Source: Macrotrachela quadricornifera (Eukaryota; Rotifera; Eurotatoria; Philodinida; Philodinidae). Taken from it: a stretch of 64,000 bases of DNA. Positions 9,876 to 63,848 of the stretch are shown here, one piece after another. Every line of letters starts with the position of its first letter. Within the stretch, counting starts at the first letter, position 1. The stretch is taken from positions 361,824-425,823 of the forward strand of contig JAJEKB010020358.1 in the NCBI GenBank assembly GCA_022393335.1, written 5' to 3'. Made by a program: the position numbers and the translations under genes. The notes below the pieces were generated by a model. That model did not search any database. It saw nothing but the letters and a program-made list of their open reading frames with translations, and was not told the origin of the DNA.

Positions 9876-11015
9876 ATGAAAATTTCACGAACGATAAAAA
9901 ACAGTGTATTATACACTGCGCCTTTATAAATTCGTTCAACATTTATTATTCCATGCTTTTTTTTTCATAGTCTACGGCATTATTGTTATCTTTTGCGTGC
10001 TGTTTGTTTTTAATATCAAGAACGTACACAAAGCTTGCTCTCCTCTACAAGTAGTACTTAACTTAAGATCGAGAGTAAATCGTTTCACACAAAGCAAGGC
10101 ATGGCTAACAAGGAAGAGAAATCAATTACAAACAAAATCATAACTAAATCTGGCAACTTGAATTTGGATATTGTTATTAAAACGTATGCACGTGATCTAG
10201 ATGTCTTCATGCAACTGCAAGCAGACATAAAACAACATTGTTTCTTCAAAGGCCATATTTATGTGATTGTTCCTGAGCGTGACACGGATCTTTTTCAATC
10301 AGTATTGGACAGAGACTTTCGGTTATTCACGGTTGAATCTGTTCTGCAAATTTGGGAATATAAAGTTTCTGGTCAACGATTTGTTGAGTCGTGGATAAAT
10401 CAACAAATTATAAAATTACTTGCTGCAAAAATTGTCGAAATGGATCAATATCTCATATTAGATTCAAACACATTACTTAACTACAATTTTGACGAAAGTC
10501 ATTTTTTGCGTGAGGATGAGAATGGTCGTCATCTGTTTATTTACGGAATAGATGATTTTGATGATCATGAATGGGAAATCTCTTCACACGCTGTGTTGGG
10601 TCTTGATGATCAGTCTACTCCTATTTATGGTTTTCGTAGTGTTAATCAAATATTTATAGCAGACAATGTTATTCGTCCGAGTGAATATCTGCAAAAGAAA
10701 TTTAACAATACAGATTTCGTTTCTCTTTTATAAAATTTCACATGGACTGAGTACAATCTCTACGGTCTGTTTTGTAAATGTATTCTCAAAGATCAAAGCA
10801 ATCACTATTTTACCCGGATAGATGACGTCATGTTTGTAACGAAAACAGTTATGGAAATGCCTAACTACTTGAACACTATCCGTGATCTTCGTCCGCTGAT
10901 GATCAAATTGTATAAAAGAAGACCTGAGTATACGTTGTCCGATGTTGAGTATGATAAAGTTCATCGATTCATAAAGAGTTTATTTTTCGAAACGACAGTT
11001 GAAAAAGGAAAATAA
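9876..11015 (+). pseudogene. DUF6492-like glycosyltransferase, type II membrane anchor, single premature stop
   Basis: Proposed exons: 9876-9903 (ATG), 9971-10050 and 10095-11015, with GT-AG introns of 67 and 44 nt that keep the frame. The N-terminus then reads as a short basic cytosolic tail followed by a hydrophobic anchor (YGIIVIFCVLFVF), typical of a Golgi type II enzyme. The lumenal part contains LDIVIKTYARDLDVF, WINQQIIKLLAAK and YLILDSNTLL, then WTEYNLYGLF, the order seen in the DUF6492 family of putative GT-A transferases. In-frame TAA at 10731-10733 interrupts it between FVSLL and NFTWTEY; the frame resumes immediately and stays open to 11015 (about 341 aa in all). The usual acidic DxD is DSN here. 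One nonsense change in an otherwise clean reading frame suggests a very recent pseudogene, a segregating allele or a sequence error. Family assignment is moderately sure. Confidence 0.65.
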
Positions 11016-15525: not shown

Positions 15526-16042
15526 TTACCACGGATTATGGGCTGCCATTATATATACATAGATAGTACTAAATTGGAAATGAAACCTCATTATGTGAAG
15601 AAATCTTTGTTGCTTTCAAAATTTGATGGAAGAATGTTCTAATTTTGAGAGACGTTGTATAATTGCAGAGGAATATGAATGCGGAAAAACTTAGTTACCA
15701 TCGTACACTCACTAGATTCCACGTAGAATGTGTTGTCCCTACTGTGAAAAAAGTTGTGTCATACACAATTCAGATCGCAAATTACAACAGATACGATAGA
15801 AAAATATGTAGAGTGTAATAAAGCTGAGAACTACGTGTCTACGAACGAACAATGATTCTTGACTAAATTGTGAAGTCCACTCTTAGAAGTTTGGAAAGCT
15901 AGGCAAGAGCCAGTAGGTGTACTTGAATATTTTATTGAAGAAACTCCACGAGCTGAAAGATGAAAAAAAGTGCATAAAACGTAGCATGAAGATTGTCAAA
16001 AGACTGAATCATAAGCTAGCTGTAATTCAGATTGTAAAATCG
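15526..16042. other. 3' flank of the six-domain enzyme gene
   Basis: No gene recognised; on the minus strand this is the downstream region of the large gene. Confidence 0.5.
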
Positions 16043-19000
16043 TTAGGATGAAGATGAGTTTCCAATCGCCTGGAAGATAGTCTGCATCAATGGATTTGTT
16101 GAAGAACGATCGTATTTATTGTTTTCATCTGGACCCAACTCGTAATCCATAGTATCCCAGTGATGTTCACGAAACGCGTAAAGACAGGAACTCCAACCCT
16201 GTGCACGACACGCCTGAAGTGTATCTTTCAAATACAGCTCCGCTCCTCGAATATTTCGTGAGATACCAATTTCTCCAACGAATACTTGCTTTGAACTAAG
16301 TCCAAGTACCTGGGTGACAACCTGTAGAATGTTACGGAAAAGGAGATTAATATACGTTGAATTCCATTCATGTGTCGTAGCATATTCCCAACCAGCATCA
16401 GGAACTATACCTGGATAAGTGTAACGTCCTTTGTTGAGCCGTTGAATAGTTAATTCCCGTGGTTCATACATGTGAAACGACACTTTAAAAAGGTCTGGAT
16501 CGCGTGTGTGACATTTCAGGAGAGGTGTAGTCATGTTAAGAAGCCGAAGAGCTCGCCAATTGCACCAGAAAGAAGATTCGAGAATAATTGGTGTGTTGGT
16601 ATCTTCTCCACGTATTGCATTCATAATAGCACCATAATAATTGAGCAAATCTTGAATAGAAACGTCATTGCATGCGTTCAAATCTTCTTTACACATATGT
16701 TGTTCTGATGGTGTGTAAGGCTCATTGATGAGGTCATAGCCAATAACATTAGGCACGCGATGCAAGACAGCTGCTATTTGTTGCCACACGTTAGGTGAAG
16801 CAATGTTTCGGTGTAACGTGAGGATAACGTTAATGTTATGTTTCCCCAGAAGATCGATGTAACTAATCAAACGCTGAAGCGAAACATCTCCAATGTTGCC
16901 CATACACTGCGGCAATAGAAAGGCAAGATCAGAGATGATGTTTTCCTCGGAGCTATCATCGAGTGTACTACATACAGCTCCCAATCGAACTACTTTCACA
17001 CCGAACTGTTGTAGAGCCTGCATGTCTTTCACCTGGAGATCCATCGGAATGTTGAAGCCAATAAATTGTTGTTGCCAAGCAGACGTTTTGATCGTTCGAA
17101 AGCTACTCTGTAGGTTTGTCAGCACTGTTTCTGCTAACGCTGAATCCATGCTTGGAAATTTTGGCCACCCACGAAGCATATGATAAACATATAGTTGCAT
17201 ACGAGCACTTTCAACCTTTGGGTTAAGATAAAGAGCAACACGTGCATCGTCAGCCGATGATGTTTTTGTGTACATATTTGTTTGCCACGGTATCTTGCAA
17301 AGGCGATATTGAAAGTAGTAGGACAAAACATATGAAAGCCAGTAATCATCAACAAGAATAAATTCTTCGTACACTATTGGGATTGTTGATGCATCACGTA
17401 ATGCTTGTCGAGGAAAGAGACAACCATCAGCATGAGCAAAATGGATAATATCAGAATGATCTGTATCATCGATAAATTGCACTGTCACACCAGACTTCCA
17501 CCTGTTACAAGGATTCTCTGTATCCAGCGTATGTGGCAAAAATTTGTGACCGTGTAGACAGAGAATACATCGCGAGCCATATAAGTCCTTTTGTTCCATG
17601 AATGTGGATAAAAGATTAGGACCCGGTAACATATCATCATCTACCGTTAATAACCAATCACTATGCATGAGATGAAGCATGCACAAACGAACGATACAAT
17701 AGTAGTTGTCACTAGAATGAATAAGGTGAATTGGTTTGTTAAAAAGACCACAGATGCGTTCGACTTCACCACGACGATCGAAATTGTTGTTCCACAAAAT
17801 GATTTCATATGTGCCTTCGAAATCTTGCTCATACAATAATGCCCGAAGTATGCGCGGCAAATCGTCTGTGCGCTTATATGAACAAATGCATATGGTAAGA
17901 TCAACTTGCCGAGCTACACTAGGCGAAGGAAGACCAATATAGGGAATGCTCTGGCTGAGTGAGCTGACGAAGTATTCTCGACTGAGGTGCATCTTGCTCA
18001 TTTTTGAAAGATAGAATACTGCATTTCGAATATTGACCTCTGTAAGTCGTCCAGCAGCTTCGTCAAGTGAATCGAGGAAAAGTGGATAGTGACAACCCAA
18101 ATATTCTTCTAATGATGCGAATCGTCGTAAAAGAATCGGTGTGTGACTGACAATGCATTCGACGACAAGTGTAGATGCTACACCATCCGATTTTAAACTA
18201 AGAAACGGTATGCTACTTCTCAATAGTGTTTCATAGTCCGCGTCAGAAAGTCGTTTCAGTACTCTAATGTTTTTATTCCTTGCTTGTTCTATGAGGCGTT
18301 TCTCTTCCATGCCTTCCATTTCGGTTAGTAGTAATATTTTTTCCATATTGGATGGAACTCGAAGCATAAAAAAATCGTCAACATTACGCATATAACCACC
18401 GATCATGACGACTTTGGTTCGACGTTGTTCTTCACTCGTTTGAATCACTTCGATGGGCGCACTGATAGGATAGAAAAGTCGGCAAACCGGAACTTCTGCG
18501 ATAGGCAAACGTTCGCGTATGTAGTTGCATAGATAGGTGCTCAAAGTGTAAATTCCACGGCACTTGGTAAGACTGGAGAGAAAAGACGGCGAGTGTAAGA
18601 GACGGTTGACGTCAGGCACCCAGACGGTATCACATTCTGGTGCTTGATGCATGATACCCATCCAAGGCACATTAAGAGACAGTTCATGTTCGAAAAAATA
18701 TTGCTCGACGGCCGGAATAAATAAGATATCTGCACGCTCATCGTGAAGCTGCTCTCGTACATATTTCATTACAGCACAAAAACCGCCTGCTCGATGATGA
18801 TTCCAATCCGATGGTCCTTCAGCAAACTTTACTTTGCGCTCTGGTGGTATAATACAGTTTTGAACAGCCGAAGGGCCAATATAAAGAAAGGCTTTGGCAA
18901 ATGTAGCAGGCTTGTGAAGTGGTTTCAAATGTAAGAAGTGGCGTGCCACAAATTCACATACACCCCGTGCGTAACCATATGTTTGTACGATAACAATAGT

Positions 19001-21898
19001 TTTGTTAGGTACTAACTGATATTGAAGCGTTTGCCAGAGGAGTTCAAGCTCATCGTCATCATCGCTGATGTCGAGAAAAACTAGATCAACAGGCCGAGTG
19101 AAGACACTCTTTAATGTTTCCATCCAAGTGCTCATATCATAGGAGAGTCGAACAGGCACAACTGTACATGTTTTTGATGCAACTGCTTCAACATTTGATA
19201 TGAAGGTTGAAAGAAACGATCGTCCAGCAGCTTGAGTTTGCCATAAATCGCCACGATTATTCATCCATTGTTGCCAACGAAAGCCATCAATGGCCGTGAG
19301 GTGAACATCTTTGAACTCATGAAGTGCATGAAGAATTTGAACAGTAGTTCCGCCTACCCAAGGGCCGAATTCAACTATCGTTCGACATTCATGTTCTACG
19401 GCTAGCCAACAAACTAGCTGTTGTACTTCAGCAGGTGTGGAAGTACGAATGTTGGTTTTGAGCAAAGGAACATCATGCCAAGGTGATCTTGATGTTGGAA
19501 CAGGAAGTATGTGATTATGAGCACGCATATCACCAAGGTATGTGCCAAAGAAGAGAAGGTTGGATCGAAGGTCTATATCGAGACTCGATTCAGCACCTAC
19601 CTCGAGAAGTACTGATTCCAACTCCTTGCTGATCGACCAATTTTCCCGATCCGTAGTGAAGAAAGCATGTAGTCTCATCATGATATTGGCAGTGTCGACA
19701 ATTATTTGTCGATCCTGGGTATCATTACCTCCAATTACATTCAAACGACCAGTCTTTGGATCAAGTATGGCAGATGCAGATGGCTTCACAAAGCATCTTT
19801 CTGGCAACGTCCACGTTTCCTGAGTGAAAAATGATAAAACAACGTTGCAGATATTTTTAACGTCTGTTTCTTGTAGCCAATAGTGAGAAGGCAAGTAAAA
19901 GCCGATTTCTGCCAGATGCAATGCTTCCGGGCACGCAACACGAGTAAATTCTGGAAGTTTGTTGAATGCCGGCTGAAGATTCAGCGGAGGAAAATAGTTG
20001 CGTGTTTCTATACCGTATTCACGTGCTAGATAGTTGCGGAGTTGATCTCGTTGTGACCGAGATGCGCATTCTATACCGAACACCCAGGGTCCGTCTGTAT
20101 CGCCTGCCTGAGGCATGCAAGAAATTCCATACGTACTCACCGAACGCAAACTCTGTCGGTACCATGAGGACATTTGTGCTCGATGTTCGATGACTTCGTG
20201 TGTATGACGAACAGCTTTTGTAACGAGAGCCGCAGCTAGACCGTTCATTTTGCCGTCAATGCATGGCTCAAGATGAACAAAGTGATACCGGGGTGTGAAA
20301 CCATGATTTACTATCGAAATAAGACGCGTTGCAGCTGTGGGATCACGAGAGAGAACGAAGCCGCCATCACCTGCTGTGATTGTCTTGTTTGCATATAGGC
20401 TCGCACAAGCGTACATTCCAAAAGTGCCTAACAGTTTGCCACCGACCGAAACGCCAATACATTCACTGATATCTTCAATAAGAATCCAGTCGTTTTGTAT
20501 GCACATTGCCTGCAATTGCTCGATATCTGCCGGTATCGAATACGTATGAGCTGTGATAATAGCTTTTACATATTTTTTGCATTCTGTACATCGGCGAGCT
20601 GCTTCTTCGTATTCCTCAACACCCGGATTGTACTTGTCACATGCATTATCTACGAAAACTGGTATTCCACCCGCATATAAGACTGCATTTGGAACAGCAA
20701 TCATTGTAAATGATGGAACTAAAACACAGTCGTTAGGTCCTATTCCAGCACATTGCAAGGCCAGAAAAAGAGAAACGAATCCATTGGCGCACGGTTGAGC
20801 AACAGGGACATTGTACATACGGCGCAGTTCGCCTGCCATTTCTGTGATTGGCAAAGAAGCCGAGGAGATGGAGCGTGTAGTCACAGCTTTGAACACGTTT
20901 GTCACAGCTTCTGGAGTAACATAAGGTTCTGCTACACGATAGGCCCAGATGCCAGTACTAGGCGAAGGCTCCGACTCAGGCCACCATGACTGTGACTGAA
21001 GACGGTGTCGCTCTCGAACTTCATTCAACATGGCTTCAACATCCAGTTGTTCTGTCTGCACCGATCCACTAAGTGAAAGCCAGTTCGAAATTTTAGCTGC
21101 TGGATCAGCAGGATTTTGCTTCTTCATAGCCGTTTCTACAGGAACACTCTGAAGACCACATGCTCGAAATATAGGTGCTACAGAGTTATCAGGAGATTGA
21201 ATCAAACTAGAATACTCAATCGGAATAATATTGACGTCAATGCCGATGCGTTCGATAATACTTTCCCAATGTTTGCGCGTTTCACTGCAGAACTGATTGA
21301 ATTCGTTTTCGTCCACATGAATTCGACATGTTTTTGACTCAGATGTTTCAGAATACCAACAATTTGTCGTCTCAGCAATCTTCAACGAGACAAATGAGTC
21401 CAGCAATGATCGACGCCAGACAATGACAACGAAAGAAAGGTTCAATCGTCGGATCAATTCAAGAGGATCGATATTGGTAGTAAAAAGCTGGGAAATGTGA
21501 ACCTTGAAACATTCGAAAGTGCCAGGGTAGCATGTACATAGTTCATCATCTAGATGTTGCAAGATTGAGAGAGGCTCCGTAGGTAATTCCTGAGTCTCTG
21601 CATTGAGCAGCTCGTCATGTACGTTAATATAAGGATGACAGTGTAGATAGGAGGAAAAAAGGGTTGAGCCAGAGCGTGGATCACTGAATATGACGAAGCG
21701 AGAACCACCCGTTCGAGGAATAACTTCATCCGAACCTTGCTTGGCAATCATGAGCAATGGCTCAGCCAACTTGTTCAATTTTACCCATTCCACTCGATCT
21801 TCCGCAGGTAAAAAATCACTTTTAAAAGTCGTATGAACGGCTCTAGCTAGCTGCTGTTGACGCGACAGCGAGTCGGAGAGCATTTTCATTTTGTCCAT
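16043..21898 (-). CDS. Six-domain fusion: sulfotransferase, aminotransferase, methyltransferase, two glycosyltransferases, GH5 glycosidase
   Basis: One uninterrupted frame of 1951 codons from ATG 21898. Domains (residues approximate): (1) about 66-270, Stf0/NodH-like sulfotransferase with SDPRSGSTLF as PAPS loop and WRRSLLDSFVSLKIA as 3'-phosphate region. (2) 330-695, DegT/DnrJ/EryC1 PLP aminotransferase; ED (Asp476) and YANKTIT (Lys505, Schiff base) present. (3) 820-1010, Rossmann methyltransferase with VEFGPWVGGTT, AIDGF and VDLVFLDI. (4) 1020-1300, GT-B-like transferase. (5) 1333-1550, GT2 transferase: TICICSYKR and VDDDM. (6) 1610-1950, GH5 glycosidase with R in VVRLG, LTLH, NEP (Glu1726), SFHMY and GEIG (Glu1876), so both catalytic glutamates are intact. 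No signal peptide or membrane helix is seen, which suggests a cytosolic protein. All catalytic motifs look intact, so the gene is under constraint. The absence of introns contrasts with the XDH gene and suggests bacterial ancestry of the parts. A TATAAAA lies at 21974-21980 on this strand; alternatively the exon begins at 21936, spliced from the ORF at 22450-23179. Confidence 0.88.
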   Translation of the reverse strand: MDKMKMLSDSLSRQQQLARAVHTTFKSDFLPAEDRVEWVKLNKLAEPLLMIAKQGSDEVIPRTGGSRFVIFSDPRSGSTLFSSYLHCHPYINVHDELLNAETQELPTEPLSILQHLDDELCTCYPGTFECFKVHISQLFTTNIDPLELIRRLNLSFVVIVWRRSLLDSFVSLKIAETTNCWYSETSESKTCRIHVDENEFNQFCSETRKHWESIIERIGIDVNIIPIEYSSLIQSPDNSVAPIFRACGLQSVPVETAMKKQNPADPAAKISNWLSLSGSVQTEQLDVEAMLNEVRERHRLQSQSWWPESEPSPSTGIWAYRVAEPYVTPEAVTNVFKAVTTRSISSASLPITEMAGELRRMYNVPVAQPCANGFVSLFLALQCAGIGPNDCVLVPSFTMIAVPNAVLYAGGIPVFVDNACDKYNPGVEEYEEAARRCTECKKYVKAIITAHTYSIPADIEQLQAMCIQNDWILIEDISECIGVSVGGKLLGTFGMYACASLYANKTITAGDGGFVLSRDPTAATRLISIVNHGFTPRYHFVHLEPCIDGKMNGLAAALVTKAVRHTHEVIEHRAQMSSWYRQSLRSVSTYGISCMPQAGDTDGPWVFGIECASRSQRDQLRNYLAREYGIETRNYFPPLNLQPAFNKLPEFTRVACPEALHLAEIGFYLPSHYWLQETDVKNICNVVLSFFTQETWTLPERCFVKPSASAILDPKTGRLNVIGGNDTQDRQIIVDTANIMMRLHAFFTTDRENWSISKELESVLLEVGAESSLDIDLRSNLLFFGTYLGDMRAHNHILPVPTSRSPWHDVPLLKTNIRTSTPAEVQQLVCWLAVEHECRTIVEFGPWVGGTTVQILHALHEFKDVHLTAIDGFRWQQWMNNRGDLWQTQAAGRSFLSTFISNVEAVASKTCTVVPVRLSYDMSTWMETLKSVFTRPVDLVFLDISDDDDELELLWQTLQYQLVPNKTIVIVQTYGYARGVCEFVARHFLHLKPLHKPATFAKAFLYIGPSAVQNCIIPPERKVKFAEGPSDWNHHRAGGFCAVMKYVREQLHDERADILFIPAVEQYFFEHELSLNVPWMGIMHQAPECDTVWVPDVNRLLHSPSFLSSLTKCRGIYTLSTYLCNYIRERLPIAEVPVCRLFYPISAPIEVIQTSEEQRRTKVVMIGGYMRNVDDFFMLRVPSNMEKILLLTEMEGMEEKRLIEQARNKNIRVLKRLSDADYETLLRSSIPFLSLKSDGVASTLVVECIVSHTPILLRRFASLEEYLGCHYPLFLDSLDEAAGRLTEVNIRNAVFYLSKMSKMHLSREYFVSSLSQSIPYIGLPSPSVARQVDLTICICSYKRTDDLPRILRALLYEQDFEGTYEIILWNNNFDRRGEVERICGLFNKPIHLIHSSDNYYCIVRLCMLHLMHSDWLLTVDDDMLPGPNLLSTFMEQKDLYGSRCILCLHGHKFLPHTLDTENPCNRWKSGVTVQFIDDTDHSDIIHFAHADGCLFPRQALRDASTIPIVYEEFILVDDYWLSYVLSYYFQYRLCKIPWQTNMYTKTSSADDARVALYLNPKVESARMQLYVYHMLRGWPKFPSMDSALAETVLTNLQSSFRTIKTSAWQQQFIGFNIPMDLQVKDMQALQQFGVKVVRLGAVCSTLDDSSEENIISDLAFLLPQCMGNIGDVSLQRLISYIDLLGKHNINVILTLHRNIASPNVWQQIAAVLHRVPNVIGYDLINEPYTPSEQHMCKEDLNACNDVSIQDLLNYYGAIMNAIRGEDTNTPIILESSFWCNWRALRLLNMTTPLLKCHTRDPDLFKVSFHMYEPRELTIQRLNKGRYTYPGIVPDAGWEYATTHEWNSTYINLLFRNILQVVTQVLGLSSKQVFVGEIGISRNIRGAELYLKDTLQACRAQGWSSCLYAFREHHWDTMDYELGPDENNKYDRSSTNPLMQTIFQAIGNSSSS

Positions 21899-22449
21899 CG
21901 TCAATTGGTCACATGTATGAACAGATCGAAGCGCATCTGCAAGAAAACAGTAATAAAAGAGCCAGTAATGAGCTTTTATAGGACATAACTAATACTTTAA
22001 ATGTTCTAAACGGATGGCGTCCTCAAACTTAAAAGAAGTCCATTGCTTTAAGAATAACTTCACAAAGCACGTATCTAGCCAGGTAAAAGAGAGAAGATTC
22101 ACTTAGATGGAAATAGATTTGATCAATGAACGATCAAATGATTAATGAAGGCTATTAGGAATGGTCTGAGGGTGTGAGGTGAAAGTTGGTTACTTGTTGA
22201 GAGGAATATTCTTTTGATGATGCTCGTCTGCAGACATCCTCAAGTGAACGAGAGATCTCTACCCTCATTTTGAAAATCAGCGAGTACCTTATGATCATTT
22301 CGCTTCATATAAAAATTTCTAAGCCCAAAGAAATGTTCTGCTAGACCAATAAAAATACGATTTTTAATTCGCAATCTTTCTAGTGAGTGAAGTAAACATG
22401 TGTTATTGTTTCTTCTTTGTATCCTTTTTTTTATGATATTTCTTCTAAC

Positions 22450-23179
22450 CTGTGAAAGCAGTCTCCATCCGAAAAGCTGATTTCACAAACTCCGGTATCA
22501 GTTCGGTCCAGGTTTGATATGATGAATGCTTGACGAGTTTAGTACAGCTGATTAGAAGATCATTCATTTTCGTAAAGAAAACCATACCACTTCTACCTAG
22601 CTGTAGATAGATGGTAAGAAAATTCAGGAAAGCGAATGAGAAAACGCTCTTCTCTTGAGAAGGTAGGTTGAGTTTGGTTGCCGATATCTGTTTTTCAAGG
22701 ACGATGAGTGCGAGGTTGTCCCATGCTCTATCCCATTCAGAGAGACGTTGAAAGAGTACGGTAACGATATACATGAGATCTTCTAGATTTTTGGTCTTCT
22801 TGCATTCAATGTGCATGTTGTCCACTCGATGCTGAACGTTTTCGATCAAAGTTGTGATCTTCTCGAATGAGGTAGCGGGAAATCGGTCAAAGAACCGTCG
22901 AAAGACGTTGCAAAGGCATGTATCCAACTCTTCATCATGCTCGATCAACAGAGCTTGTTGCAAATGCGAGATAATATTGGCGCTTGTCTCTTCATCCGTC
23001 TCAGATTTCGTATTCAAAATAGTATTCACCACGAAACACAGAGAACCATACCGACTTTCGTCAGTAACAGGACGGTTAGCGAGCTGAACTTGCACATCCT
23101 TCCAAAAAGAACTAGTATCTTCGGCATCGTGACGTTTTCGTTCGATGAATACATTGCACAAATTTATGACATTATCCAT
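22450..23179 (-). CDS. Helical ORF, possible 5' exon of the six-domain enzyme gene
   Basis: ATG at 23179 opens 244 codons of mostly alpha-helical, soluble sequence (FWKDVQVQLANRPV, LFQRLSEWDRAWDNLAL, FLNFLTIYLQLGRSGMVFF). No family recognised. The frame ends with ACA GGT TAG, and the GT there is a plausible donor at 22449. On the same strand, TTTTCTTGCAG is a strong acceptor ending at 21937. Joining 22450 to 21936 (513-nt intron) makes codon GAT and continues directly, in frame and with no stop, through TMDKMKMLS into the large fusion protein. The combined protein would have about 2200 residues with a helical N-terminal region. An acceptor-like TTTTTTTAG lies just before the ATG. As a separate gene it would encode a 244-residue protein of unknown role. 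Confidence 0.6.
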
Positions 23180-41202: not shown

Positions 41203-44200
41203 ATGAAGAATTATATCTTTTTTTATGTCAATGGAAAAGAAATTATTGATCATAATATTGAACCTGAATGGACTCTTCTTTGGTATTTAAGAAACAGTAT
41301 GTATTATAAATATTTATTCTTTTAAAATAATCTTGAGATAAATTTTTTATTTCTATTTTATATAGAATTAAGGTTAACTGGTACAAAATCAGGTTGTGGA
41401 GAAGGTGGTTGTGGAGCATGTACAGTTACTGTTTCAAGATGTATTGATAAAGAATCAAATGAAATTGAATATCGAACAATAAATAGTTGTTTAGCATCAA
41501 TATGTTCTGTTGATGGTTGTCATGTAATAACAATTGAAGGAATAGGTTCATTGAATAAATCAAATCTTCATTCAACTCAAATTCGTTTTGCTGAATTATA
41601 TGGATCACAATGTGGATTTTGTACACCAGGAATGATAATGTCTCTTTATGGTACTCTTACATCAAAAGATAATTTATCTCTAACATTAAAAGATATTGAA
41701 GAATCATTTGATGGAAATCTTTGTCGATGTACTGGATATCGTCCAATTCTTGATATTGCAAAAACATTTGCAAATGATATAGAAAATATTCATTATGATA
41801 AATCATCATCATCATTAATAAAATCAACTACATATGATAAATGTTTTTCATATGTTCAAGAAAATTCTTTACCAATTAATCAAATTGAATTTCCATCTAA
41901 ACTTCGAGATTATATTCCTCAATCAATTCATATAAAAGGTAATTCAATTGAATGGTATCGTCCAATATCACTTAATGAAGTTCTTGAACTTCGTCATACA
42001 TATCCAGGTAATCAATCAAAATTTGTTTTTGGTAATACAACCGTACAAATAGAAAGAAAATTTCAACATATTTATTATCCTCGTCTTATTTCAATAACAC
42101 ATATTAAAGAATTACAAGAAATAAAACGAACTAAAGAATTCATTTATATTGGAGCTGGTGTTACATTTACACAATTAAAGTTAAAATTAATTCAATGGAA
42201 TAATGAATATAATAATAATAATGAAGATGGTGGTTTTTGTCAATCTTTACTTAATCAAATAAATCAATTTGCATCAACACATATTCGAAATGTTGCTTCA
42301 ATTGGTGGAAATATAATTGCTGCATCACCTATGTAAATCATATTTTATAAAAATATCCTTTTTTATATATTAATTTTTTTCTTTTTATTTAGTTCTGATA
42401 TAAATCCAGTGTTAGAAGCTGCTGGTACTATACTTGAATTACATTGTATTGATAAAAATAAAATTCGATATATTCCATTATATGATTTATACCTTGGTGA
42501 TCATCGTATATCAATAAAAGATGATGAAATTCTTATTAATATTCATATTCCACTTCCAAAATCGTTAAAAAATAAATATTTTCTTCAATCATATAAACAA
42601 GCTCGTCGTCGTGATGATTCAAAAGGAATTGTTAGTGCTGGTTTTCATGTTGAACTTGAACAAATAAATATAAATAATAATCAATGGAAAATTGTTTCCG
42701 TTTGTTTTTCATTTAGTGGAATGTCATCAAAAACAATTATTCCAATAAATACTCTACAAAAATTAATTGGTTTATCATGGACAAAAGAAACAATAAATCA
42801 AGCATGTGAACTACTTCTTAAAGAAATGCCACTTAATGAATTAAGTCCAGGTGGACAAATTCAATATAGGTTATTATATTTTTTATCAATAATAGAATTA
42901 TTTTCATATATATATATTTAGACGAACATTAGTTCAATCATTTCTTTTTAAATTTTATTCATATGTATGTAATGAATTACAACAATCATTAATTGATTCA
43001 AGTATTCTTCCTTATCATCGACCAATATCTCATGGACAACAAATAATACCTGAAAAACCGCAATCACAAAATATTGTTGGTACTTCATTACCACATCGAT
43101 CAGCTTATTTACATACAACTGGAGATGCCATTTATTTAGATGATATGCCATCTTTAATCAATACACTGCATGCTGCACTTGTACTTAGTACAAAACCAAA
43201 TGCTAAAATCCTGCATATTGGTAAGAAGTTTTTTTTGTCTGTTTTGACAATTCTAATTAAAATAATATAATATAATAGATATTGAAGCTGCTTCAAAAGT
43301 TCCTGGTTTTGTAACATTTGTTAGTCATATTGATGTACCCGGTTCGAATATAACGAATGATCGTCTACCAGACGAAGAAGTATTTGTATCATCTATTGCA
43401 CTTTGTATTGGAGCAGTTATTGGTGTTGTTGTTTGTGAGACAGAAGATGCTGCTCAAAAAGCTTCAAATCTTATTAAAATTGATTATGAATTATTATCTC
43501 CATTAATTTTGACAATTGAAGATGCTATTAATTATCAATCTTATTTTGGTGAGGAAATAAATATTTGTCGTGGTGATGTTAAAAAATCTTTTCTTGACAG
43601 TGAACATATATTAGAAGAAACTTTATTTATGGGTGGTCAAGAACATTTTTATATGGAAACAAATTGTTGTATGGTTATACCATCTAATGATGATAAAGAA
43701 GTAACATTGTATAGTGGAACACAAAGTCCATCTGCAACTCAAGAATTAACTGCATTAGTACTTGGACGTGATGTTAGTCATATAACATGTCATATTAAAC
43801 GAGTTGGTGGAGGATTTGGTGGAAAAGAAACAAGATCGTAAGTGATTTATATCTTTTTTCAAATGTAATATACATGAAAACTTGACATATTATAGTATTC
43901 CATCGTGTCTAGCTGTTGCAGTGGCTGCTGTTAAAGTTAATCGTCCTGTTCGTTTAAATCTTGAACGTCAAATTGATATAGCTGTAACTGGACATCGACA
44001 TCCATTTAAAATAAAATATAAAGTAGCTTTTAATAATGAAGGTCGTATTCAAGGACTTGATATGCAATTTTGGAACAATGCAGGTTCCACATTAGATGCG
44101 TCAGATGTTATAATGGAAAAAGCATTGCTTCATATGTGTAATGCCTATCAAATTCCTAATGTTGAAATTCGTGGTCGTGTTTGTAAAACACATTTACCAT

Positions 44201-45606
44201 CAAATACTGGTTTGTCACAACAATTATTAAGATATTTAATCAGAATTTTTTTCTAAATTTAGCTTTTCGAGGTTTTGGTGCGCCACAGGCAATATTTGCT
44301 ACTGAAACAGTTATTGAACATATTGCTGCATATCTTAAACGTGATCCATATAGTATTCGTAATCTTAATTTATTTAAAGAAGGTGATAGAACTCATTATG
44401 GACAAGTTTTAGAAGGATGGAATATTCCTAGAATATTAGATGAACTTAGTAAATCAAGTGATTTCTTTCAAAGACAAATTAATGTTAATGAATTTAATCA
44501 AAAAAATATCTATCGAAAACGTGGTATATCAATGATTCCAGTTAAATTTGGTATTGGATATCCACTTCGACATCTTAATCAAGCCGGAGCTCTTGTTCAT
44601 ATTTACAAAGATGGTTCAGTATTAATCAGTCATGGAGGTGTAGAAATTGGTCAAGGTCTACATACAAAGATGATATCAATAGCTGCTGAAGCATTACGTT
44701 GTAATATTGATAAAGTACGAATTAGTGAAACAGCAACAGATAAAGTACATAATACAGTTTCAACAGCTGCTTCTGTTTCATCAGACCTTAATGGAATGGC
44801 TGTAAAACGTGCATGTGAACAACTTCGACAACGATTAGATAAACTTATTAATGAAAAAAAATTAGATATTTCATGGGAAGATCTTATAAAACAAGCTTAT
44901 TTAGCTCGTATTGATTTATGTGAACATGGATTTTATGCAACACCAAATATGTTTGATGTTGATTTTGATCGTAATCGAGCACGTTTTAATTATTTTACAC
45001 AAGGTGCAGCAGTAACAGAAGTTGAATTAGATGTATTAACAGGAGATTGGCATATTTTACGTGTTGATATTCTTATGGTATAGAAAGTTATCTTTAAATA
45101 ATAATAAATCTATTTATTTATTTATTTATTTACAGGATGTTGGTATATCACTTAATCCTCAACTTGATATTGGACAAATTGAAGGTGGTTTTATGCAAGG
45201 AATTGGTTTATTTACAATGGAAGAACTTATTTGGGGTGATGATAAACAAAATAAATGGATTGAAAAAGGAAAATTATTTACATGTGGACCAGATACTTAC
45301 AAAATTCCATCATTTAGTGATGTTCCAATTGATTTTCGTGTTTCACTTTTATCTAATTCAACAAATTCTCGAGCTGTTTATTCATCAAAAGGTATTGGTG
45401 AACCACCATTATTACTTGGTACTTCAGTTTTTTTTGCTTTAAAACAAGCATGTATGGCCTATCGTAAAGAACATGGTTTATCAGATTATTTTACATTTCA
45501 TTCACCAGCAACTGTTGAGAGACTTCGAATGATTTGTGTTGATGAATTTACTCATCGTGCATGTTCGGATGAATATGAAATATTTCCACCAAGAGGTTCA
45601 TATTAA
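41203..45606 (+). CDS. XDH: Xanthine dehydrogenase, eight exons
   Basis: Oxidises hypoxanthine to xanthine and uric acid in purine breakdown; cytosolic molybdo-flavoenzyme. Exons: 41203-41296, 41366-42332, 42393-42869, 42922-43220, 43279-43837, 43896-44209, 44263-45077, 45136-45606. All seven introns are GT-AG, 52-69 nt, and the splices restore conserved motifs. The sum is 3996 nt, 1331 aa, the usual length. Seen in order: first 2Fe-2S site TGTKSGCGEGGCGACTV; second site CGFCTPGM and CRCTGYRPI; FAD domain with IGGNIIAASP(I)SDINPV and QARRRDDSKGIVSAG; Mo domain with GGQEHFYMET, GGGFGGKETR, NTAFRGFGAPQ, and C-terminal SKGIGEPPLLLG. The Glu in GGQEH, RRxDD and the Glu in GEPP favour XDH over aldehyde oxidase. 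Start chosen because MKNYIFFYVNGKEI matches the family N-terminus. No lesions seen, so probably active. Confidence 0.93.
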
Positions 45607-61811: not shown

Positions 61812-61967
61812 AAGAATGAAGTAAATGCTTTCGCTCAACATGGCGAAACAGAAATAGCATTTGATTAATCTATATATTAATCACTACAAAATAGTTTTTC
61901 AGATTTGTTCTTCGTTTTCTTGCTATTAGAAGCTCTAAAGTATAATTCACATCGATATTTTCTATCG

Positions 61968-63848
61968 ATGGATCAAACAGACAACGCTACTATAGCACGT
62001 CTCTTCGAATGTACAATTACTAAACAAATATTCCGTGATCCAGTTGTGGCAGAAGACGGATATACATATGAACGAGAAGCCATAATGAAACGGTTACAAA
62101 CGAATGGAGGAACAAGTCCGAATACACAACAGTCCTTGCACATTGATCGGCTCTTTCCAAATCTTCTTGTGAAAGAACTTATTCATGAACATTTCGACAT
62201 AATACTGCGAAAAAAGAAATACATATTCAAACTTGGGGAAGACATAAAGAAATTAGATTTTTTATTCGAGCATTTTGGAAAGATAATCTATGAGGCCGAA
62301 TGGATAAAGAAACCCAATGAACAACCAACTATTCGACTACCAATTATTCTGATGTCAATCCTTGGCGCCCGAGCGAAAAAAGAAGCAGTATTCTACGTTG
62401 AAATGAGTAAACATGCACATATCGTGCGTACGTACGGATTAGTTGTTAATCCGCGCAATGAAGTCATGCTTGTGCAAGAACGTGCTGAACATCGTAGTTT
62501 GAAGAACTTTTTGAGAACGCGAGATCAACCTATTAGTGAAGAGGTCTTGAAGGAGATATTTATCCAAATAGCGGATGGAATGTCTTTTCTAGCTCATAAC
62601 AGCATTGTACATGGCGATATTGCTTGTCGAAATATACTTGTATTTAAATTCGATGAACAAAATCCCAAACAGACTCTCGTTAAAGTGACTGATTTCGGTC
62701 TTAGCCAAGAAAGTTCAATATACGAGAGCGTATCAACATCCGCATTTACTACTCTAAATATGCTTCCTATTCGATATGCGGCACCCGAAATACTTCAAAA
62801 TCCGAAAGAGACGAAATCTTATACCGAAAAATCAGACATGTATTCAATGGGTGTACTAATGTGGGAAGCTTATTTTCCAGGAGAAGAACGACCATGGTCA
62901 CATATTGATGACGACAAAGATGTGAAGCAACGAGTAGTTAATGGAGAACGACTTCAACAGCCGCTGACATGCAGCAAAGAAATGTGGTCACTTATTCAAA
63001 CCACGATGTCACAACAGCCAAGCGGTCGACCAGCATTTGCCGATCTGCATCGCCAGCTTATCGAACTTAAGATTTGCATCCAACCGCCTGAGGTCTTATC
63101 AAGAATCGTGAAAGAAGCCTTGGAAGCGATCAGAACGAAAAGCACAAAGATTACTCTGTCCAGGAGCTATTTATGCGACGAAGACATGAAAATAATAGCT
63201 CAAGAACTAAAGACAAACGAAACTGTTGATTGCTTGGATCTTCGTCACAATAACTTATCAAACGAAGGAGCTATAGCTATTGCTGAAATGCTTGAAGTGA
63301 ATAAAACAGTCAATGAAGTGCTGCTTAACGGAAACAATATATCTTCAGAAGGTGCGAAGCGATTAGCGAAAGTTCTCTTAGTTAATAAGACATTAACCTC
63401 TCTTCAAATTGGCCGTAATCCATTGTCCGATGATGGAATTCAAGCAATTTGTGAAGTATTAAAAACAAACAAAACACTGCAAAAGCTGTGGATCCACGGA
63501 ACTCAGCTATCGATCATAGGTTTAAAATTAATAGTAGAAATGTTGCGCACAACTACGGCATTGACAGAGCTTGCTATGGGAACAAACAATATCAGAGACG
63601 ATGGTGCTAAACTAATTGCAGAGGCACTGAAAATAAACACATCTCTCACATGGCTGTATATGGAAAGCGGTGACATAACAGACGAAGGTGGATTTGCATT
63701 GGCAAAAGGAATTGAAGCACATAGAAAAAAAATTGACTATTTTTTTATTACTCCTGATCCCCCAATGACAGATAATGGAAGAAATGCAATCAAAGCTGCG
63801 CTACGTACAAACGCAACATTTGACCTACATAATTTCAGATCGATGTGA
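61968..63848 (+). CDS. U-box / protein-kinase-like / leucine-rich-repeat fusion
   Basis: 626 codons from ATG 61968, with no intron; an acceptor-like TTTTTCAG at 61894-61901 leaves open an upstream exon. Residues 11-80: U-box (FECTITKQIFRDPVVAEDGYTYEREAI), which in E3 ligases docks the E2. Residues 87-370: kinase-like domain with HGDIACRNIL (catalytic Asp 217), TDFGLS (242-244), YAAPEIL and SDMYSMGVLMWE; these resemble tyrosine-kinase-like enzymes. The glycine loop is not recognisable and the VAIK position reads IILMS, so the ATP-anchoring lysine seems absent. Residues about 410-620: six to seven ribonuclease-inhibitor-type LRRs (VDCLDLRHNNLSNEGAIAIA and similar, 28-residue spacing). Suggested role: LRR recognition coupled to ubiquitin signalling, with the kinase domain acting as scaffold. 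Cytosolic. The frame is intact. Confidence 0.88.
   Translation: MDQTDNATIARLFECTITKQIFRDPVVAEDGYTYEREAIMKRLQTNGGTSPNTQQSLHIDRLFPNLLVKELIHEHFDIILRKKKYIFKLGEDIKKLDFLFEHFGKIIYEAEWIKKPNEQPTIRLPIILMSILGARAKKEAVFYVEMSKHAHIVRTYGLVVNPRNEVMLVQERAEHRSLKNFLRTRDQPISEEVLKEIFIQIADGMSFLAHNSIVHGDIACRNILVFKFDEQNPKQTLVKVTDFGLSQESSIYESVSTSAFTTLNMLPIRYAAPEILQNPKETKSYTEKSDMYSMGVLMWEAYFPGEERPWSHIDDDKDVKQRVVNGERLQQPLTCSKEMWSLIQTTMSQQPSGRPAFADLHRQLIELKICIQPPEVLSRIVKEALEAIRTKSTKITLSRSYLCDEDMKIIAQELKTNETVDCLDLRHNNLSNEGAIAIAEMLEVNKTVNEVLLNGNNISSEGAKRLAKVLLVNKTLTSLQIGRNPLSDDGIQAICEVLKTNKTLQKLWIHGTQLSIIGLKLIVEMLRTTTALTELAMGTNNIRDDGAKLIAEALKINTSLTWLYMESGDITDEGGFALAKGIEAHRKKIDYFFITPDPPMTDNGRNAIKAALRTNATFDLHNFRSM

Follow-up and report, generated by a model that had tools for sequence, protein, structure and literature searches.

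Multi-enzyme polypeptides, in which consecutive enzymes are carried within a single chain, are familiar from AROM, CAD and fatty acid synthase; to our knowledge none of these uses nucleotide sugars and also carries out sulfation, methylation and the cleavage of glycosides. Most of the foreign genes reported in animals encode single enzymes, and heparosan synthase 2 and EXTL2 are polysaccharide enzymes of the membrane or Golgi. The protein described here, encoded within a 64,000-nucleotide stretch of DNA (the window) from the rotifer Macrotrachela quadricornifera, resembles AROM, CAD and fatty acid synthase in that consecutive enzymes are fused in one chain. The explanation that we prefer, and consider quite likely to be right, is that a bacterial-type carbohydrate-modification cluster was fused stepwise into one animal gene, which is under strong constraint and encodes a probably cytosolic amino-sugar enzyme.

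The open reading frame concerned (P0001, 1951 aa) opens with an ATG at 21898 and occupies a single exon on the minus strand (16043..21898), followed about 107 bases past the stop by an AATAAA motif resembling a polyadenylation signal (15931..15936, minus strand). The first-pass annotation had described it as one 1951-codon frame holding, in order, a sulfotransferase, a DegT aminotransferase, a class I methyltransferase, a GT-B and a GT-A (GT2) glycosyltransferase and a GH5 glycoside hydrolase, and profile matches together with predicted structures bear this out. It had also called the gene intronless, and on this point the evidence favours a different structure. A stretch of 243 codons plus one base without a known domain (22450..23179, minus strand) is, to judge from codon usage and an in-phase join, probably an upstream coding exon, and the splice-site letters and phase suggest that it is separated from the main frame by a probable phase-1 intron of 513 bases (21937..22449, minus strand; GTTAGA...TTTTCTTGCAG): the upstream frame stops at CAG/GTTAGA, the main frame resumes after TTTTCTTGCAG/, and joining the two stays in phase to give 2207 residues. 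With codon usage learned from the main frame, only the joined frame of the upstream stretch looks coding (0.095 per codon, whereas the other five frames score -0.11 or less), and the GC content is 0.42 in the upstream exon, 0.43 in the main frame, 0.34 in the intron and 0.31 in the flanks. Since the in-phase intron and upstream exon are probable, the main frame is better regarded as one large exon than as an intronless gene; the gene as a whole probably comprises at least two coding exons, encoding 2207 residues in all.

Nothing significant was returned for the upstream exon by Pfam or PDB searches. One relative, P0007, carries an N-terminal extension of its own (some 540 residues, without detectable similarity to 22450-23179), and the idea that the upstream exon might be its homologue was rejected when BLASTP found no similarity between them. 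As regards location, no 19-residue window is strongly hydrophobic (the maxima are 1.68 in the main frame and 1.16 in the upstream exon), and since no segment resembles a signal peptide or membrane anchor, the six-domain protein would probably stay in the cytosol.

Given that the domains belong to typically bacterial families and that the GC content of the frame (43%) exceeds that of its flanks (31%), one might suspect an artefact, either bacterial contamination or a long frame arising by chance. This can be considered extremely improbable, however, as the frames around it encode eukaryotic proteins (a 7tm_1 receptor and a U-box/kinase/leucine-rich repeat protein), the probable in-phase intron leads to an upstream exon with the same coding bias and GC, the same frame is found in Rotaria socialis and other sources with its catalytic residues conserved, and the longest frame in 200 mononucleotide shuffles averaged 118 codons and never exceeded 214. 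Elsewhere in the window, the U-box, kinase and leucine-rich repeats lie together in one 647-aa frame (61905-63848, plus strand), an FAD-dependent oxidoreductase frame (PF12831; 53995-55461, plus strand) is possibly another foreign gene, and pieces of a molybdenum hydroxylase (FAD_binding_5, Fer2_2 and MoCoBD_2; 41551-45606, plus strand) probably belong to one intron-containing gene; no RNA genes were found in the window.

Assignment of the six domains, all on the minus strand, rests on profiles for every one, supplemented by alignment for all except the GT-B domain and by predicted structures for all except the first and last. The sulfotransferase (residues 66-299; 21002..21703) is of Stf0/NodH type, with a PAPS-loop-like RSGST at 75-79 and Glu96. 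It scores 22.3 bits with Sulfotransfer_3 against a curated cut-off of 27, while relatives P0009 and P0054 reach the Stf0 Pfam cut-off; NodH (9vki) is found by the family profile at 2.7e-9, and by the window domain alone only at 0.19. Next comes a sugar aminotransferase of the DegT/DnrJ/EryC1/StrS type (residues 318-692; 19823..20947), for which the DegT Pfam score is 200.7 bits against a curated cut-off of 19.8. A fast-evolving region (693-814; 19457..19822), recognised from pairwise identity, precedes the class I methyltransferase (residues 815-1008; 18875..19456), which is Methyltransf_24-like: the window protein scores 21.3 bits against a curated cut-off of 26.3, a level that is reached by relatives P0008 (33.1 bits), P0010 (31.4) and P0054 (34.3). 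The GT4-like domain that follows (residues 1022-1325; 17924..18835) has a GT-B fold according to both profiles and predicted structures. The GT-A domain (GT2/GT64-like; residues 1331-1583; 17150..17908), carrying DDD at 1420-1422 and DD at 1517-1518, scores 26.5 bits with the GT2 Pfam model (cut-off 23.3), and the GH5 domain (residues 1604-1935; 16094..17089), carrying Glu1726 and Glu1876, scores 45.6 bits with its model (cut-off 23.5).

The catalytic residues named in the first-pass annotation (Lys505, Asp476, DDD 1420-1422, Glu1726 and Glu1876) are indeed present, and are conserved across 21 aligned relatives, counting at each column only those rows that have a letter there. Asp476 and Lys505, which we take to be the PLP-binding aspartate and the PLP lysine respectively, are kept in 19/19 and 20/21 rows, the one exception being a Q in P0011 at the point where its model starts. 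The DDD motif is kept in 16/16 rows and Glu1726 in 15/15; Glu1876 is kept in 12 of 14, P0010 and P0055 differing near their ends, and P0057 is counted among the 12 even though its GH5 match ends before the site, so that its agreement is perhaps due to chance. Glu96 of the sulfotransferase is kept in 11 of 12 rows (P0010 has Asp), and in the methyltransferase Gly845 is kept in 16/17 (the exception being P0058) and Asp871 in 17/19 (the exceptions being P0011 and P0064). Both the six-domain architecture and its conservation are well supported.

Three protein searches were made across 5.8 billion proteins, and in two of them scoring was limited to the top 8,000 or so candidates. The whole-protein query yielded ten relatives, from P0002 (80% identity) to P0010 together with the partial P0011, among them Rotaria socialis (P0005) and Rotaria sp. 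Silwood2 (P0007), so that full-length homologues in other rotifers, which the first-pass annotation had proposed looking for, were found in that genus. Eleven relatives were returned by a query with the N-terminal half (best 7,997 candidates scored), including proteins from the velvet mite Dinothrombium tinctorium (P0054), the fungus gnat Pseudolycoriella hygida (P0059) and the nematode Panagrolaimus davidi (P0064). In all, the same domain order is seen, whole or in part, in 17 database proteins. When 18 family rows are considered (P0001-P0011, P0054-P0058, P0061 and P0064), domain profiles match all six domains in 12, P0055 and P0057 being partial at their ends, while six rows have fewer domains in the same order (P0011, P0054, P0056, P0058, P0061 and P0064); of these, the mite protein spans sulfotransferase to GT-B and the nematode protein DegT to GH5. 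Left out of this count were P0059, since the gnat gene model repeats and reorders its pieces, and P0060, P0062 and P0063, which contain nothing but DegT, alone or together with a sulfotransferase or methyltransferase portion. None of the species-assigned non-rotifer records found (mite, gnat and nematode) has all six domains; P0009 and P0010, complete divergent members with all six, carry no species assignment, and their DegT domains are 46-49% identical to that of P0001. The first-pass annotation knew of no described protein with this architecture, and likewise no description of a six-domain protein was found in the literature searched, mostly outside subscription journals, among the matches listed.

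Not every part of the chain is equally fixed. By profile, no methyltransferase match was detected between DegT and GT-B in the nematode protein P0064 or in P0011, the relative closest to it, and the match in P0058 is weak, so that the methyltransferase step looks dispensable; identity to P0003-P0006 is only 31-37% over residues 693-800, compared with 54-70% for the methyltransferase and the domains after it. Both observations would fit a more modest interpretation, namely that there is one polypeptide and no assembly line, the domains acting separately, some of them being structural and the fusion serving only to fix dosage. We would lean against this, as the order and the named catalytic residues are kept in the rotifer-type rows and P0009, and mostly in P0010.

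Partial versions of the fusion also exist. A query with the two glycosyltransferase domains yielded 41 proteins (best 8,000 candidates scored), of which P0015, P0016, P0018 and P0019, plus the MMETSP transcript P0047, have the architecture GT-B-GT-A-GH5, P0023 is GT-B-GT-A-methyltransferase and P0013 is GT-B-GT-A-GT-A; the remainder are GT-B-GT-A or parts of it, including a two-domain protein from the sponge Oscarella lobularis (P0021). Since both GT-B-GT-A-GH5 and sulfotransferase-DegT (P0060) exist alone, the fusion looks to have been stepwise. As a separate observation, 23 of the proteins returned by this query (P0027-P0029, P0031-P0045 and P0048-P0052; 382-532 aa, from the ena and lgn sources) in 23/23 cases have a GT-A match that reaches no further than position 170 in a profile of 255, and that mostly ends near 156; these GT-B-GT-A models look as though they were cut at one intron, and may represent intron-bearing animal genes.

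Mobile elements were also searched. A viral source was considered and rejected, since an IMG/VR scan with the full alignment as query matched 27 stretches and gave 0 confirmed relatives, and neither P0013 nor the GH5 DNA was matched in phage records. Plasmid records matching P0016 number 55, the ten listed covering 34-35% of it (its GH5 part), and P0013 matched one cyanobacterial GT-B on a plasmid of Crinalium. In this Crinalium epipsammum plasmid (L036, 11611-13011) the same-family GT-B is fused to TPR and lies near NTP_transf_5, PqqD and ABC-transporter genes.

Two short peptide patterns were used to scan 84,980 genomes of bacteria and archaea. This approach, which is therefore not exhaustive, gave 35 loci, two of which, both from Bacteroidota, have GT-B-GT-A-GT-A genes. 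In Fulvivirga marina (L001) a LegB-like 4,6-dehydratase and a DegT gene lie directly upstream of this gene, a DUF6492 gene lies directly downstream on the opposite strand, and a methyltransferase is found 4.4 kb further on; in Chryseosolibacter histidini (L002) two sulfotransferases, a DegT, a dehydratase and a DUF6492 gene lie within 8 kb downstream. Four of the six domains are thus represented by relatives in each locus, and five in the two combined, the sulfotransferase and methyltransferase occurring together in neither. GH5 is missing from both, and no cluster with all six types was present among the bacterial loci scanned. The other 33 loci from the scan (some of them shorter than the full flank) lacked any match to DegT, sulfotransferase, methyltransferase or GT-B: the GH5 profile alone was matched in 31 of them, and the GT2 profile alone in the other two (L034 and L035). 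When 36 loci were compared (E 1e-5), relatives of the dehydratase or DUF6492 were absent from the other 34, including plasmid L036. As DegT identity between the window and L001 or L002 is only about 30%, these two are not the donors.

The DUF6492 gene may provide a further link. When the proteins of L001 and L002 were compared with the window by tblastn, only the six-domain frame and one DUF6492 gene (10101..11015, plus strand; tblastn and profiles) were found, with no 4,6-dehydratase. This gene, a relative of one in both loci (36% and 29% identity, E 5e-39 and 3e-33, to L001 and L002 respectively), lies 5 kb from the six-domain gene and tail to tail with it, an arrangement that is seen in L001 and not in L002. 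Its reading frame continues past an in-frame stop at 10731-10733, because of which the gene may be decaying. Descent of the six-domain gene from a bacterial-type cluster is likely on present comparisons. The first-pass annotation had proposed a captured bacterial cluster fused into one gene; what stands of this is that relatives of several domains do lie side by side in L001 and L002, while the fusion now appears stepwise and is not peculiar to rotifers, the order being found in part in the mite and nematode, whole in P0009 and P0010, and as rearranged pieces in the gnat.

Phylogenetic trees bear on how the gene came to be where it is. In a GT-B-GT-A tree of 36 rows chosen from 61 (the partial mite row being present only in the 61-row set), 14 six-domain rows form one clade (100/100), and a single origin for the fused proteins is well supported. 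With outgroups included, this clade divides in two, the rotifer-type rows (100/99) and all others (100/100), and the same split recurs in DegT, GH5 and sulfotransferase trees with support of 84 to 99; the rotifer label rests on two Rotaria rows out of eight, and the label ecdysozoan-type on P0054, P0059 and P0064. An arrangement that unites the rotifer-type rows with the GT-B-GT-A-GH5 proteins can be rejected (p-AU 1.4e-6); one that unites all six-domain rows with those proteins (p 0.059), or with P0047 alone (p 0.50), cannot. The methyltransferase tree is weakly supported and leaves the family unresolved, with the non-family rows L001 and P0023 placed beside the rotifer rows.

Such a pattern is what one might expect of ancient vertical inheritance, under which the six-domain gene would date back at least to the ancestor shared by rotifers and ecdysozoans and would have been lost almost everywhere since, the bacterial clusters being distant cousins. 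A 19-row family tree, built without an outgroup, pairs the mite with the gnat (96/94; the gnat row has letters in only 19% of the columns) and sets them apart from P0064 with P0011 (100/100). This branching agrees with animal relationships and therefore fits old inheritance with many losses, without proving it, and the two separate clades within one family, the deep divergence of P0009 and P0010 in DegT and the two-domain relative in a sponge all point the same way. We would rate this explanation as not far short of an even call, given that very many losses would be required and that few members turned up in the 5.8 billion proteins searched: one insect, one mite and one nematode species, from searches two of which scored the best 8,000 or so candidates.

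Patchy occurrence could also be produced if the already fused gene moved from one animal lineage to another, or if several animals acquired it from a single microbe not yet sampled. The matches are scattered among Rotaria, a velvet mite, a sciarid fly and Panagrolaimus, and in the DegT tree P0060 and the DegT protein P0063 do not fall within the animal set; moreover, bdelloid rotifers are known for foreign genes, according to PMC4632278, and trombidid mites carry laterally acquired terpene synthases, according to PMC6275457. Against this, the ecdysozoan-type branching follows animal relationships, as far as the rows carry species, and no donor was found; transfer of this kind is thus possible, if somewhat doubtful. 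The scattered occurrence makes the choice between old inheritance and transfer between phyla directly testable.

If we return to the preferred explanation, that of a bacterial-type cluster fused stepwise into one constrained animal gene, then the product, judging from the domain families, would be a sulfated, methylated amino-sugar compound. In the scheme that we infer, which extends to step order, substrates, product and cytosolic site, a separate 4,6-dehydratase would supply an NDP-4-keto-6-deoxy sugar, to be aminated by the DegT domain with PLP carried on Lys505; the two glycosyltransferase domains would transfer the amino sugar and another sugar, probably of hexosamine type, to an acceptor; the methyltransferase (using SAM) and sulfotransferase (using PAPS) would decorate the product; and the GH5 domain would trim, release or re-transfer the glycan by a retaining mechanism involving Glu1726 and Glu1876. 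A bolder version, to which we would give rather less than half our confidence, holds that the whole assembly line was fused once, before or across the rotifer-ecdysozoan split, and makes a sulfated, methylated amino-sugar product of a kind not on record for animals, possibly as a metabolite for defence or protection during drying. If the amino-sugar chemistry is active, a bacterial-type 4-amino-sugar chemistry would be added to those of animals.

It is against the known systems that the protein can best be placed. Among stand-alone enzymes, its DegT domain is similar to GDP-perosamine synthase (PDB 3bn1 and 3dr4) both by profile search and by comparison of predicted structures, while in relation to the LegC-family aminotransferases its score with the NCBIfam model (168 bits) falls far below the curated cut-off of 420. 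To heparosan synthase 2 and EXTL2 the window protein shows 16% identity. The four GT-B-GT-A-GH5 proteins from lgn and jgi (P0015, P0016, P0018 and P0019; 921-933 aa) and the MMETSP transcript P0047 (a 734-aa fragment) correspond to its C-terminal half in the same order, but lack the sulfotransferase, DegT and methyltransferase, whereas P0023 (jgi, 929 aa) combines GT-B-GT-A with the same type of methyltransferase placed after the transferases rather than before them. The loci of Fulvivirga marina and Chryseosolibacter histidini share with it DegT, GT-B-GT-A and either the methyltransferase (L001) or the sulfotransferase (L002), with DUF6492 as a neighbour; they differ in that the genes are separate save for the GT-B-GT-A fusion, a second GT-A replaces GH5, a LegB-like dehydratase is encoded locally, and the sequences are distant. 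Since pre-fused intermediates and separate-gene relatives are both still alive, the path from cluster to megaenzyme is traceable, and it would lead to a case in which most of a bacterial-type pathway has apparently become one conserved polypeptide.
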